A DNA stretch of 64,000 bases from contig NZ_JABXKH010000059.1 in NCBI RefSeq assembly GCF_017115105.1, positions 1 to 64,000 of the forward strand, in the 5' to 3' direction. Within the stretch, counting starts at the first letter, position 1. Each line of letters begins with the position of its first letter. The stretch comes from Nostoc sp. NMS2 (GTDB lineage: Bacteria; Cyanobacteriota; Cyanobacteriia; Cyanobacteriales; Nostocaceae). Below are positions 26,438 to 52,403 of the stretch, piece after piece. Position numbers and translations under genes: made by a program. Below the pieces are notes generated by a model. That model worked only from the letters and a program-made list of their open reading frames with translations. It was not told where the DNA came from and did no database searches.

Positions 26438-27625
26438 ATGAAGATACTGGTCTTGAGTTGGGAGTTTCCACCAAGGATTGTTGGGGGAATTGCGCGGCAC
26501 GTAGCGGAGTTGTACCCGGAACTGGTAAAGCTAGGACATGAAATCCACCTGATTACGGCGGAGTTTGGTCATGCATCGATGTATGAGGTGGTTGAAGGAG
26601 TAAAGGTACATCGCGTGCCAGTGGCTTATAGTAATGACTTTTTCCACTGGGTAGTGAATCTCAATTTGAGTATGGGAGATCACGGTGGTAAGTTGATCTT
26701 GGAGGAAGGGCCCTTTGATTTAATTCATGCCCACGATTGGTTAGTTGGAGATGCTGCGATCGCTCTCAAGCATAATTTTAAAATACCACTAATTGCCACA
26801 ATTCACGCTACAGAATACGGACGCTACAACGGTATTAACACTGAAATCCAAGGCTATATAAATGGCAAAGAAACCTTGCTGGCTTACAATGCTTGGCGGA
26901 TTATTGTTTGTAGCGACTATATGCGCCAAGAGGTAAAACGAGCGCTACACAGCCCTTGGAACAAAATTGATGTAATTTATAACGGTATCAGAGCCGAAAA
27001 GAAACAGCATCACGTAGATTTTCATGCGCTGGATTTTCGCCGCCAATTTGCTACAGACAACGAGAAAATCGTTTATTACCTCGGTCGCATGACCTACGAA
27101 AAGGGTGTACCTATATTACTTAATGCTGCACCCAAAATCCTTTCGGAAATGGGAGGTAATGTTAAATTTGTCATCGTTGGTGGCGGCAATACTGAGCATC
27201 TCAAGCGCCAAACCTGGGATTTGGGAATTTGGCATCATTGCTACTTTACAGGTTTTCTCTCTGATGATTACTTAGATAAATTCCAAACTGTTGCAGACTG
27301 TGCCGTTTTTCCTAGTCTTTACGAACCTTTTGGAATTGTAGCTTTAGAAAGCTTTGCTTCTCGCGTGCCTGTAGTGGTTTCCGATACAGGTGGTTTTCCC
27401 GAAGTGGTGCAACATACCAAAACAGGTATTGTTACTTGGGTGAACAATTCCGACTCTTTAGCTTGGGGAATTTTGGAAGTGTTGAAAAATCCAGGTTATC
27501 GCCAATGGCTGGTGGATAACGCTTATGAGGATTTAGAGCGGCGCTTTAGTTGGCCGAAATTAGCTAGGCAAACTCAAGAAGTATATCAGCGAGTCGTGCA
27601 AGAGCGATCGCAAATTCCCTGGTAA
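26438..27625 (+). CDS. Glycosyltransferase family 4
   Basis: This 395-residue GT-B enzyme starts with MKILVLSWEFPPRIVGGIARH, the Gly-rich donor-site loop typical of glycogen-synthase-like and related GT4 enzymes. The acceptor half contains LIHAHDWLVGDAA. The donor half contains YLGRMTYEKGV and the EX7E motif EPFGIVALE. Members use nucleotide sugars to make glycans or glycolipids. The donor and acceptor cannot be determined. It is monocistronic, with GGGGAG 9 nt upstream of the ATG. Confidence 0.88.
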   Translation: MKILVLSWEFPPRIVGGIARHVAELYPELVKLGHEIHLITAEFGHASMYEVVEGVKVHRVPVAYSNDFFHWVVNLNLSMGDHGGKLILEEGPFDLIHAHDWLVGDAAIALKHNFKIPLIATIHATEYGRYNGINTEIQGYINGKETLLAYNAWRIIVCSDYMRQEVKRALHSPWNKIDVIYNGIRAEKKQHHVDFHALDFRRQFATDNEKIVYYLGRMTYEKGVPILLNAAPKILSEMGGNVKFVIVGGGNTEHLKRQTWDLGIWHHCYFTGFLSDDYLDKFQTVADCAVFPSLYEPFGIVALESFASRVPVVVSDTGGFPEVVQHTKTGIVTWVNNSDSLAWGILEVLKNPGYRQWLVDNAYEDLERRFSWPKLARQTQEVYQRVVQERSQIPW

Positions 27626-28523: not shown

Positions 28524-29165
28524 TTACTCCTGACGACCACCTAGAGGATTTGCTCGACCAGCTACACTTTCAATGGCCGTTAAAGCTCCCGCCGCACCTG
28601 CTAGAATATCTCGCTCATGTCCACCTAAGTAAAGCCGTCCAAAACTTCCTACAGCTTGAACCTCAAGGATGTTAATCGATGCTGCTTTCTCAGCTTCATT
28701 TGCAGCGAGTGCGGCGTAAGCAGCAGGCTCCACTTCTAATACATATAGCGTTTGCCCTGCTAGTAGTAGCTGTCCCCGTCGCGTGCGATTAATAAGTTGT
28801 GTTTGGTAAGCATCAATGTTGCGGATAATCTGGCTAGAAACAACACGCGGTTTCAGACATTCCTCTTTTCGGACTCCCAATGCCGCTAAAATGGCTTGAC
28901 CAGCAGCCCGCGTTTCGCCTTGGGAGCTAGAATGAACTTCTAATAGTCCGTACAGTCGTTCAACTATCTGTACTCCCGGACGGACAGAGGCAGCTTTCAA
29001 GGCTACATCTGTAATTTTATTAATTTCGATACCAGGAGAGATTTCAATCCACAGTGATGTATCCCCTGGTAATGGTAAGAAGCCTTGGGCTACTGTTCCC
29101 ATATATGCTGCATGTTGAGGTTGCAGGCTGTCGAGAAATACGAAACTGCGTAGTTCTATTCCCAA
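28524..29165 (-). CDS. ccmP: Carboxysome shell protein CcmP (tandem BMC domain)
   Basis: This 213-residue protein has two fused BMC domains and matches cyanobacterial CcmP along its full length. CcmP trimers stack as dimers and form a gated pore in the beta-carboxysome shell, proposed to pass larger metabolites such as RuBP and 3-PGA. The gating residues Glu69 and Arg70 are present in VERLYG. The second domain shows [17 protein letters not shown] and [18 protein letters not shown]. As in other cyanobacteria it lies outside the main ccm cluster. It is the first gene of a two-gene unit with the pentapeptide gene. Confidence 0.93.
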
Positions 29166-30153: not shown

Positions 30154-31450
30154 CTACCCAACACCCATCTGAGTACAGATAGGGTGTGGGCTTCCCAATT
30201 CACAGGGGATTGCCTCGGACTTCATGGATTTTTTACGTCCTGAAGACTTTGGTCTTACATCCCCTCCAAGGGCAGAAGCGCTAGTTCCTAACGCCCATAC
30301 TTCTCCTGTCGGAGACGCTACGCGAACGCCTTTGCTCAGTACAAGAAGTCGCAATCCTTCGTTTCTAATATTGATTGCAGCATTAATATCTCTATCATGC
30401 TGTTTTTGGCAGTGAGGACAATCCACAAACCTAACTCCCAACGAATCATATCCTTTTTGCAACATTGGGATTGGTAGTAGAGTTTCACTACAAAGTTGAG
30501 AAGATGGGAAGAACCTACCTATTTCTTGATAAGTGTGTCCAAATTTCTCTGCTTTGTACTTGAGCATGGTTTGAAACATTCCCCATCCTTGGTCTGATAT
30601 TGATTTTGCCAAGTTGGGATTTTTAACCATATTCAAAACTTTCAAATCTTCTACACAAATAACTTGGTTTTCGTATGCTATTTTGCGAGATAGCTTGTGT
30701 AGAAAATCCTCTCTTACTCTAGCTATTTTACTAGAGGCTCTCGCCACTAAATGTTTAGCTTTGCGACGTTTATTAGATGTTTTGTCCGTCTTCTTAGCTA
30801 ATTTCTTCTGTTTTCGCTTTTTGTTCTTTTCTAACTTAGCTAGCTGCTTTTTAGGAAGGTCGTACTTTGACCCCTCGGAAGTGATAGCAAAGTTTTTCAA
30901 TCCCAAATCAACACCAATAGCGTCTCTAATCGCAACTACTGGATGATCATTTTGGTTGAAAAGAATAGATGCGTAGTACCTACCGTCTGCATTTCTGGAT
31001 ATTGTTACAGTCGTGAACTTGGCATCGGGGAGTTCCTTGTGAAACACGGTTTTTATTAACCCCAAATTACCAGGAAACTTAATCACAGAGTCTTCTGTCA
31101 TCAATTTCACATTCTGAGGATATTGAATCGATTGTTTACCATGCTTAGATTTAAAGTTAGGGAATTTAGCGCGTCCTTCAAAGAAGTTGACAAAAGCACT
31201 CTTATTGGTTGAATGTGACTCGTTGCAACACTTGGCTGTATGCAAGTCCTAGCCATTCATATTCCTTTTTCAACTCTGGAAGCAACTTATCCATAGCTGC
31301 TTTAGAAAGACCTTTCCCAGTTTCTTTATACACGGTAGTAGTGGCATTGAGCATATAATTCCACAACCATCGAGTATTGCCAAAACATTGAGCTAGGTAT
31401 GATTCTTGTTCGTCTGTTGGATAAATTCTAACTTTAATTGCTCTATACAT
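30154..31450 (-). pseudogene. tnpB: tnpB of an IS605/IS1341-type element, frameshifted
   Basis: The first part (31450 to 31202) reads MYRAIKVRIYPTDEQESYLA to SQVLQRVTFNQ and stops. The downstream frame continues with NKSAFVNFFEGRAKFPNFKS to the end. One extra C after the VTFN codons near 31207 explains the break; removing it restores a TnpB of about 430 residues. RuvC residues are kept: Asp in IGVDLGLKNF, Glu in VCVEDLKV and Asp in DRDINAAINI. The first half of the zinc finger reads LCSETLLP with one Cys only, whereas the second half is CPHCQKQHDRD. No tnpA is nearby. TnpB is an RNA-guided nuclease of transposons; this copy is probably dead. Confidence 0.88.
30161..30187 (-). repeat. Hairpin at the 3' end of tnpB
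   Basis: ACACCCATCTG and CAGATAGGGTGT pair with one bulged base around AGTA. It overlaps the last codons of tnpB, the position where IS605-type elements keep a right-end hairpin and the omega RNA ends. Confidence 0.5.
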
Positions 31451-31744: not shown

Positions 31745-33016
31745 TTAAGCTGCAATTCGTGGTCGGGTATTGGGTGCAGTTTGAGACAGCAAACGAGTAT
31801 AAAGTTGAGTCAGTCGGAATCCGACACTGTACCAACTAAAGGCAATTTCTGTCCGTTGTCGAGCCGCTTCGCCTAACTGGTCGCGCCAAGCTGGGTTGGT
31901 AAGAATGCGGTCTATAGCAGCAGCAAAAGCTACTTCATCTTTAGGAGGCGCAAGTAACCCAGTCACTTCTGGTACAACAGTAAACTGCAACCCGCCAACA
32001 TCACTAGCTACGACTGGTGTCTTACTAGCCATTGCCTCAATAGCAACTAAACCAAAAGGTTCATAGTGGCTGGGGACTACGCAGACATCGGCGGCGGCGT
32101 AGTAGAAGGGGAGGGCAGTTTCATCTAGGCGACCAGCAAAGGTTGTACAATTTTCTAATCCGAGTTCAGTCACGATGCTAGCAATGCGATCGCGTTCTAT
32201 TCCATCACTCTGACCTGGACGGCTACCACCACCAATCACTAGCTGGAGGTTAGCTTCACCCCTTAAACTAGACTTGGCAACGGCTCTTACTAAGGTTTCA
32301 ATTCCTTTGCGGCGGTCAAAGCGACCAACATAGAGAACCATTTTGGCATCTGGGGCAATTCCCAACTTTTCCCGCGCCGCAGTTCGCTGAATTCCGCCAA
32401 ATTTGTCAGTATCAGTGCCACAGGGAATCATTTCAATGTTTCCCTTGCTGGAAACTAGTACCCGCATGTGTTTCTGTTCTTGCGGACTGGTTGCAACTAC
32501 ACAATCTATAGTTTCCAAGCAGGCTTTTTCTACAGCTAATCGCTTGGCTGCAATTACGGGAACATCACCAATACTTCTATATTTAACGGCTCCTAAAGAG
32601 TGGTAAGTATGTACCTGAATCAGGGGTTGCTGCTTTTTCAATTCCATACCCACCCAAGATGATAACCAGTAGTTGGTATGAATGAGGGAGTAATGGAACC
32701 CTTGGCGCTGCTGGAATTGCTGGAATTCTTCGATGAATTCAGGTAGATGCTGGAACAAGTTATCTCGCCCGATAAACTCAGATGGGCCAGCTTTTAACCG
32801 AATAGTACGACAGTTTGGGCTATGTTGAGCGATCGCAGCTTGTTCGGGATTACTACGACGAGTGAACATATCCACTTGCCAACCTTGCTGGGCTAAGGCA
32901 TAACCTACTTGACGCACATAAACATTTTGACCCCCAGCTTCTTCTTGACCAATTTCAACCGCCGGGTCGCCATCAACAGAAATTAGGGCAATGCGATGCT
33001 TCTTATTCTGGAACAT
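31745..33016 (-). CDS. GT4 glycosyltransferase, sucrose-phosphate synthase / MshA-like clade
   Basis: This 423-residue GT-B enzyme has the N-terminal signature EEAGGQNVYVRQVGYALA shared by sucrose-phosphate synthases, sucrose synthases and MshA. HTNYWLSSWVG and HTYHSLGAVKYR follow, then the donor-side motifs YVGRFDRRKGIETL, GGGSRPGQSDG and EPFGLVAIE. The length agrees with the minimal, single-domain sucrose-phosphate synthases known from Anabaena. It may therefore make the compatible solute sucrose-6-phosphate, but another sugar acceptor cannot be excluded. It is preceded by a c-di-AMP riboswitch, which supports a link to osmotic control. Confidence 0.8.
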   Translation of the reverse strand: MFQNKKHRIALISVDGDPAVEIGQEEAGGQNVYVRQVGYALAQQGWQVDMFTRRSNPEQAAIAQHSPNCRTIRLKAGPSEFIGRDNLFQHLPEFIEEFQQFQQRQGFHYSLIHTNYWLSSWVGMELKKQQPLIQVHTYHSLGAVKYRSIGDVPVIAAKRLAVEKACLETIDCVVATSPQEQKHMRVLVSSKGNIEMIPCGTDTDKFGGIQRTAAREKLGIAPDAKMVLYVGRFDRRKGIETLVRAVAKSSLRGEANLQLVIGGGSRPGQSDGIERDRIASIVTELGLENCTTFAGRLDETALPFYYAAADVCVVPSHYEPFGLVAIEAMASKTPVVASDVGGLQFTVVPEVTGLLAPPKDEVAFAAAIDRILTNPAWRDQLGEAARQRTEIAFSWYSVGFRLTQLYTRLLSQTAPNTRPRIAA

Positions 33017-33181
33017 AGCTGATTTTCACCTCAAGGTAAATAATCCTGCCTCAAACGCCAGAAATCAAGATATTATTATCCTCTCTCAAGGCCGAGGGCA
33101 GGCACAACGAACCGCAAAGTTACCAGCCAAAGGACACTGACGAGAACAAGGCATTACTTGTTAAGAATGCTGCTCGTTCAG

Positions 33182-33384
33182 TCTCTTCTCAATGCCGACG
33201 AAGTTAGCTGACGGGCTAGGACTGAGAGATGTCCTTCTTAAGAAAGTTATGAGTTATGAGTTTAGTAACTTTTAACTCCTCACCATTAACTGTTAACTTT
33301 CTTCAAAATACGCCCCAGGTTTGGTTCCTCCGCTCCGGTTTCCCCTTTATAAATATTTGTTGGGAATGTAGTGGATTAGGCAGA
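33182..33384 (-). ncRNA. c-di-AMP riboswitch (ydaO/yuaA class) upstream of the GT4 gene
   Basis: Read on the minus strand from 33384, the leader shows the class landmarks in order: CTGCCTAATCC (5' P1 strand), GGAGCGGAGGAACC, CTGGGGCGTAT, then AGCCCGTCAGCTAACTTCG and GTCGGCATTGAGAAGAGAC, whose GGC closes P1. The order and wording match known ydaO aptamers (for example CGGAGGAACC, TTGGGGTTAAT and CCGACAGCTAACTCCGGAGG). A variable helix at about 33232-33305 is long and AT-rich. The start codon of the GT4 gene lies about 165 nt after the aptamer; that space contains a long hairpin (ACTGAACGAG...CTCGTCAGT) that may be the expression platform. Confidence 0.92.
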
Positions 33385-52308: not shown

Positions 52309-52403
52309 AACGCGGCTATACAAACAAAGCTAAGAGAAAATTAAGGTTTTTTTTAACCCGCGCAGGCGGGTTTTGCCTGTGTAGACGCGGTTTCTAACCG
52401 CCC
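52309..52403. mobile_element. MITE of the GGCGATTAGAAATCGCGGC family (copy 2, deleted interior)
   Basis: AACGCGGCTATACAAAC on the left and TGTGTAGACGCGGTTTCTAA-CCGCC on the right match the family. The hairpin AACCCGCGCAGGCGGGTT is intact; it is the uninterrupted version of the site that carries a 23-nt insertion in copy 3. Confidence 0.75.

Follow-up and report, generated by a model that had tools for sequence, protein, structure and literature searches.

Background

Riboswitches of the ydaO/yuaA class (Rfam RF00379), which respond to c-di-AMP, have been verified in cyanobacteria according to a 2023 review, which cites Mantovani et al. 2022; in Synechocystis, one such switch resides before slr0753, described as a putative chloride efflux transporter (PMC10117731). 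As an idea, control of osmoprotectants by c-di-AMP in cyanobacteria is not new: Agostoni and colleagues credit Nelson et al. (2013) with linking cyanobacterial c-di-AMP riboswitches to osmoprotectants (PMC5986932, PMC4284465). The route by which salt or osmotic signals reach cyanobacterial sucrose synthesis is largely open, and a 2019 review describes the cascades that trigger ggpS and spsA in Synechocystis as enigmatic (PMC6753628). Among enzymes, the closest described system is the single-domain sucrose-phosphate synthase (SPS) of Thermosynechococcus elongatus, TeSPS (Tll1590, PDB 6kih; PMC7264703). A known heterocyst former has two single-domain SPS paralogs, as does the genome analyzed here, and its spsA is described as salt-induced through OrrA.

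We analyzed a stretch of 64,000 nucleotides from Nostoc sp. NMS2 (hereafter, the window) in which a c-di-AMP aptamer precedes, on the minus strand, a gene for an SPS-like enzyme. We put at roughly 0.85 the probability that this leader acts as a c-di-AMP riboswitch on one of the two SPS paralogs of the genome, and thereby governs the supply of sucrose 6-phosphate. The ligand class and the phylum would then be shared with the Synechocystis switch, whereas the target in the window is predicted to be a sugar synthase rather than a putative chloride transporter (PMC10117731). If true, c-di-AMP would be connected straight to the synthesis of an osmolyte, and one of two SPS copies would have gained its own signal input in strains that carry the aptamer. 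Among the literature matches listed, as represented by titles, starts of abstracts and passages, none names SPS as the target of a c-di-AMP riboswitch; an explicit earlier report is possible.

Results and discussion

The aptamer in the leader

In a cmscan of the 64 kb, RF00379 matches the leader at 33392-33178 (-) with 66.3 bits (E = 3.7e-13), well above the gathering score of 38. The alignment spans the full model (1-134), with no nonstandard pairs marked, and the core GTCAGCTAAC (33203..33212, -) is unbroken; the seven nucleotides TCAGCTA within it are near-invariant, being unchanged in 55 of the 57 SPS leaders assembled below. A search of the whole genome (7.57 Mb in 183 contigs) agrees, and returns three RF00379 matches, one of which is the window leader. 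Judged by its sequence, the leader is a genuine c-di-AMP (ydaO/yuaA) aptamer. This identity had been proposed in a sequence-only reading from five quoted aptamer words, all of which are found on the minus strand in the order claimed, and the covariance model now bears it out. The same reading gave 33017-33384 for the leader, whereas the 5' end of the aptamer is 8 nt further out than the latter position; its spacing of 165 nt to the next gene is corrected to 161 nt, the gap between the 3' end of the aptamer (33178) and the ATG (33016).

The window aptamer shares with the RF00379 family its full-length match above the gathering score, its core words and its location in cis before a gene of osmotic relevance. 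It departs from the family norm in its target gene, SPS, and in long inserts in two arms, as well as in a conserved cyanobacterial platform downstream, where a scan for intrinsic terminators came up empty and one element is a candidate anti-aptamer strand. One of the inserts, a long AT-rich segment (33237..33304, -), lies in a variable aptamer arm whose length also differs among relatives; it resembles a dispersed repeat, and the genome has four other weak matches to it, with E values between 4.5e-5 and 5.4e-4. In the leaders of L052, L066, L150, L151 and L153, the RF00379 match begins within the arm insert and thus misses the real P1 strand, which lies upstream; long arm inserts of this kind put RF00379 starts, and perhaps scores, off.

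The downstream enzyme

The next gene downstream is an open reading frame at 31745..33016 (-) that codes for a protein of 423 aa with GT4 domains, as had been stated from the sequence alone. We annotate this protein as a single-domain SPS. In a PDB search, its best solved relative is TeSPS (6kih; 459 bits, E = 1.1e-136), with which it shares 53% identity over 413 positions; MshA follows behind at 209 bits. The residues described for the TeSPS site are A48, Q51, R105, H158, R178, R249, R253, E331, P332, L335 and E339 (PMC7264703), and all 11 are identical in the window protein. Those described as catalytic or phosphate-binding (H158, E331, R105, R178, R249 and R253; PMC7264703) correspond to H139, E319, R84, R159, R232 and R236 of the window protein, and these six are present in 57 of 57 aptamer-bearing proteins, the window's included. 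The site residues are also kept in 34 aptamer-less proteins, two of which differ at Q51; because they are present with or without the aptamer, they mark SPS and not the riboswitch target.

The sequence identity to a solved SPS settles the fold of the window protein, and the earlier description of an SPS-like enzyme is upheld, with an acceptor sugar that is predicted. TeSPS and the window enzyme both consist of a single GT domain, a likeness that concerns the enzymes alone (PMC7264703). The acceptor might be another one, of the MshA-like or glucosylsucrose type, and the aptamer, otherwise as described, would then control a different glucoside. The highest NCBIfam score of the window protein indeed belongs to MshA (TIGR03449), although at 277.4 bits it is below the cut-off of 462.5, and in T. 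elongatus a separate GT4 enzyme, TeGSS, makes glucosylsucrose (PMC9909042). However, verified TeSPS has the same NCBIfam ranking, with MshA first at 288.6 bits, and the PDB search favors TeSPS over MshA by 459 to 209 bits. The TeGSS entries 7fg9 and 7fga are absent from the best 60 of 73 PDB matches, and the arginine equivalent to R253 of TeSPS is kept in the window protein, whereas the MshA alignment shows F there. The NCBIfam model for SPS (TIGR02472, cut-off 576) is not reached by the window protein (124 bits), nor is it reached by verified TeSPS (144.7 bits), which means that the model leaves this branch uncovered and that its cut-off carries no weight here. On the PDB scores and the TeSPS ranking, an MshA or a glucosylsucrose synthase is unlikely as the window enzyme, and we regard control of a different glucoside as improbable.

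Elsewhere, the genome contains one match to the diadenylate cyclase (DAC) domain and one strong match to sucrose-phosphate phosphatase (S6PP; 304 bits), with a weak second at 28.6 bits. A neighboring GT4 gene at 26438-27625 was considered as a glucosylsucrose synthase and set aside, its match to TeGSS being weak (45.8 bits).

Conservation of the aptamer with one SPS paralog

A second SPS gene of the same genome (C49:24064-25296) is 69% identical to the window SPS at the protein level and is without an aptamer. We collected 48 loci that code for relatives of the window protein across public genomes; in 37 of them (17/17, 16/16 and 4/15 in three batches), RF00379 immediately precedes the gene in the same orientation. 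In a family survey of 118 genomes, the matches listed include 27 SPS genes, in 26 genomes, whose identity to the query reaches 75% or more, and all 27 of these carry the aptamer (26 fetched genes plus the window). None of the 25 more distant SPS genes that were fetched, which represent part of the more distant rows among the matches listed, has it. The two surveys overlap, in that many of the genomes in the family survey are apparently the same assemblies as those of the loci (16 duplicates). The occurrence of this gene copy is patchy, in that four sampled genomes of the window's genus are without an SPS of at least 75% identity among the matches listed.

A maximum-likelihood tree of 91 proteins unites all 56 aptamer-bearing rows in a single clade, which comprises 60 rows and has a support of 100/100, and the aptamer label requires three changes on this tree, versus a mean of 27 when labels are shuffled. 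The tree leaves aside L076 (an ORF of just 313 aa), L081 (no ORF of at least 250 aa), 16 duplicate proteins and the window protein itself; the 57 leaders that we analyze correspond to the 56 aptamer-bearing rows plus the window. Nine of the loci, L148-L156, were picked when the aptamer was already visible beside the gene, and their nine of nine is therefore not independent evidence. Four members of the clade score under the gathering threshold. In two of these, L071 (whose protein equals that of L161) and L135, nothing in the leader can be recognised as an aptamer, whereas the leaders of L067 and L075 contain a changed descendant of it. L135 and L161 were among the 25 distant genes of the family survey and, by their position in the clade, are losses and not paralogs. 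Most simply, the aptamer was gained once, on one of the SPS paralogs, and was later lost in some lineages. The identity to TeSPS printed for An-SPS-A, 54% (PMC7264703), equals that of the C49 paralog; with the window protein at 53%, this is a weak hint as to which paralog corresponds to which.

Losses of this kind raise the question of whether the window leader is itself a relic, with an aptamer that has stopped binding its ligand or that is absent from the transcript of the gene. The aptamer-less clade members L071 and L135 would fit such a reading, as would the order of G477, where the core is missing from 5 of 13 SPS leaders. Against it, the window aptamer scores 66.3 bits with its core intact, all 27 close orthologs among the matches listed have retained the aptamer, and the platform and the spacing between aptamer and gene are conserved. 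We consider a relic very improbable. The proposal of a direct c-di-AMP switch on the synthesis of a compatible solute is, as far as sequence can carry it, strengthened by this conserved, paralog-specific pairing of aptamer and gene.

The platform and a proposed switching mechanism

In the 57 leaders, the distance from the aptamer core to the ATG has a median of 195 nt and a range of 162 to 210 nt. The approximately 160 nt downstream of the aptamer form a platform with a mean column identity of 77% in alignment A1, which comprises 25 of the 57 leaders (a second alignment, A2, comprises 20). RNAalifold, together with counts of pairs, predicts three hairpins in this region on the minus strand: hairpin A (33136..33182, from A1), hairpin C (33045..33102, CCTGCC/GGCAGG) and a small hairpin D (33026..33039) that contains the Shine-Dalgarno-like sequence GAGGTGA. 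Pair counts additionally indicate a hairpin B (33101..33124, -; GGTA/TGCC), which has two bases in common with hairpin C. Taken together, hairpins A, C and D have a paired fraction of 92.5% of cells, versus 34-44% when the strands are slid; double-sided changes occur in 5 pairs, versus 1-8 in the slid controls, so that covariation in this set is no proof of these hairpins. For hairpin B, 91.9% of cells are paired, and double changes occur in 2 pairs, versus 0-2 slid. The fold of the whole leader has a z-score of -2.37, with 1 of 100 shuffles as low.

RNAalifold also yields, unprompted, a helix between UCAGCUA of the aptamer core and an element UGGCUGG in the platform (columns 1-7 with 90-96). 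This element, TGGCTGG at 33123..33129 (-), with coordinates counted from hairpins A and B, overlaps hairpin B and is a candidate anti-aptamer strand. The pairing of element and core is complete (7/7) in 53 of the 57 leaders, and the other four (L153-L156), which belong to one lineage, have five of seven pairs. In single sequences, the duplex is weak when compared with shuffles, p <= 0.02 being reached in 2 of 11 SPS leaders tested. The best core-complementary stretch is likewise GGCTGGT at 11 of the 34 sites of L002-L033. Outside the set of 57, one position of the helix varies: L186 has GGUUGG opposite an unaltered core, which gives a G-U pair, and three variant leaders have UCAACUA with UGGUUGG, which gives an A-U pair through changes on both sides. 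The resulting series of G-C, G-U and A-U is of the right kind for a conserved pairing, and may represent a single event.

The pairing of GGCUGG with a near-invariant core suggests an anti-aptamer switch that would act on translation. In the ligand-bound state, c-di-AMP would hold GUCAGCUAAC within the aptamer; in the ligand-free state, the GUCAGCUAAC strand would pair with the downstream GGCUGG element. We take c-di-AMP binding and the place of the core strand in the aptamer from what is known of the family, and the core nucleotides are unpaired in the Rfam RF00379 consensus. Pairing of the core with GGCUGG would compete with hairpin B and would thereby change how hairpin B, hairpin C and the Shine-Dalgarno hairpin are paired. 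Since the last of these ends the chain of pairings, translation initiation is the likely target, and we propose that the switch acts mainly at this step. The level of c-di-AMP would in this way set the supply of sucrose 6-phosphate and, after sucrose-phosphate phosphatase, that of the osmolyte sucrose.

The platform might instead work by attenuation of transcription, through intrinsic or Rho-type termination. Many characterized ydaO switches end in terminators, and in the window the sequence AUUAUUU follows hairpin C. Several relatives, however, are without a U-rich stretch after this hairpin, and a scan for intrinsic terminators, which covers that type only, found no terminator-like site in 33700-32900, where shuffled sequences have a mean of 0.8. 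The small hairpin that encloses the Shine-Dalgarno sequence also argues against attenuation, although by a simple pattern a Shine-Dalgarno-like word is present in only 43 of the 57 leaders. Attenuation is in our judgment the less favored possibility, and control of translation initiation is preferred.

As for direction, analogy with the ydaO switches of Bacillus favors an OFF switch, and it is somewhat more probable that c-di-AMP turns the SPS gene off than on. Under salt, c-di-AMP is described as going up in Anabaena PCC 7120 and down in Fremyella (PMC5986932); these opposite responses in two cyanobacteria give no clear direction for the switch.

Core-altered leaders in one genus

Three leaders upstream of the same SPS gene, all from genus g174, have an altered core: L188 (the same leader and protein as L067), L189 and L190 (the same leader as L075). 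Two of them correspond to L067:3464-3813 and L075:3651-4000. Relative to the canonical core, GCCUAAUCC is replaced by GCCAAAUUC, GGAGGAACC by GGGGGGUUUA, and GUCAGCUAAC by GUCAACUAGC; the CUCUC loop has disappeared jointly with the 3' GAGAG strand. The two that were scanned with RF00379 score 19.2 (L067) and 17.2 bits (L075). The variant leaders can nonetheless be aligned end to end with canonical leaders; the four helices that we checked pair in all three (H2 is CGGGG/CTCCG, versus CGGAG/CTTCG in the window), and the platform is kept, with the element changed from GGCUGG to GGUUGG such that its pairing with the altered core is restored. By descent, we take these leaders to be derived from the c-di-AMP riboswitch and propose them as a candidate variant riboswitch.

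The three altered core blocks are identical across the three variants, and the loops vary. This pattern of blocks within the leader, together with the restored pairing, speaks for function as far as sequence comparison can indicate. Fourfold sites of the SPS gene are 84%, 65% and 65% identical in the three pairs of variants, and the aptamer segment is 84-88% identical versus 81-94% for the upstream flank; in the closest pair, the segment (84.5%) and the fourfold sites (84%) differ little. An aptamer segment no more conserved than its flank speaks against a simple argument from rates. All three variant genomes retain two or three ordinary RF00379 aptamers with the standard core, located before NrtB-like, Usp (universal-stress-domain) and other genes.

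It is conceivable, albeit doubtful, that the variant class senses another ligand and has taken over the control of sucrose synthesis. When the L067 leader was used as a DNA query against 388 genomes of the class, the variant type turned up in just 3, each from g174; of two further matches, one is L186 and the other looks like chance. Conservation of the flank is similar to that of the leader as a whole, and the order of G477 has often lost the switch, so decay remains a rival explanation of the variant. In that order, 13 SPS rows were found above threshold in 12 of 36 genomes. The core is of the standard type in 5 rows and of the variant type in 3, and the remaining 5 show neither; among these core-less leaders, one was judged on 174 nt only, and another, L200, comes from a genome with two copies, the other of which does carry the aptamer. 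As a candidate variant riboswitch with the same gene and platform, these leaders would allow a change of ligand site to be studied with much else held constant. In an order other than that of the window, the SPS leaders of L193, L194, L195 and L198 are without the core, some with platform-like remnants, which indicates repeated loss.

Other c-di-AMP aptamers and neighboring features

The other two RF00379 aptamers of the genome are both on contig C57, one before a gene for an NrtB-type permease and one before a gene for a Usp protein. Between them lie genes for an NMT1-like binding protein and an NrtCD-type ATPase, such that in C57:44000-57500 (L119) the two aptamers flank an operon for an NrtB/NMT1/NrtCD-like ABC importer, which, judged by family, would be of the nitrate or bicarbonate type. 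With two further aptamers before an importer operon and a Usp protein, a small c-di-AMP regulon can be predicted. Across 32 loci (L002-L033, comprising the best-scoring sites and those of the genome itself), 34 core sites were examined: 22 have a gene for an NrtB-like permease within 750 nt downstream, 2 a Usp protein and 10 neither. Two core sites precede the same permease gene in L004 and in L005. In L060 (L060:1977-4000) and L061 (L061/L143), genes for SPS and an NrtB-like permease are divergent neighbors, each with its own aptamer.

At the gathering threshold, the only Rfam match in the 64 kb besides RF00379 is a single CRISPR-DR28-like repeat (RF01356, 37.4 bits) at 52354-52377 (-), with no second copy at threshold in the window. 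An IS605 OrfB/TnpB-like gene at 30154-31450 (-) is probably broken; the ORF as listed has a TTG at 31245 as its first codon and does not extend to the likely N-terminal start at 31450. Approximately 2.6 kb downstream of the SPS gene, at 28524-29165 (-), is a gene for the carboxysome shell protein CcmP (NF053796, 408 bits).
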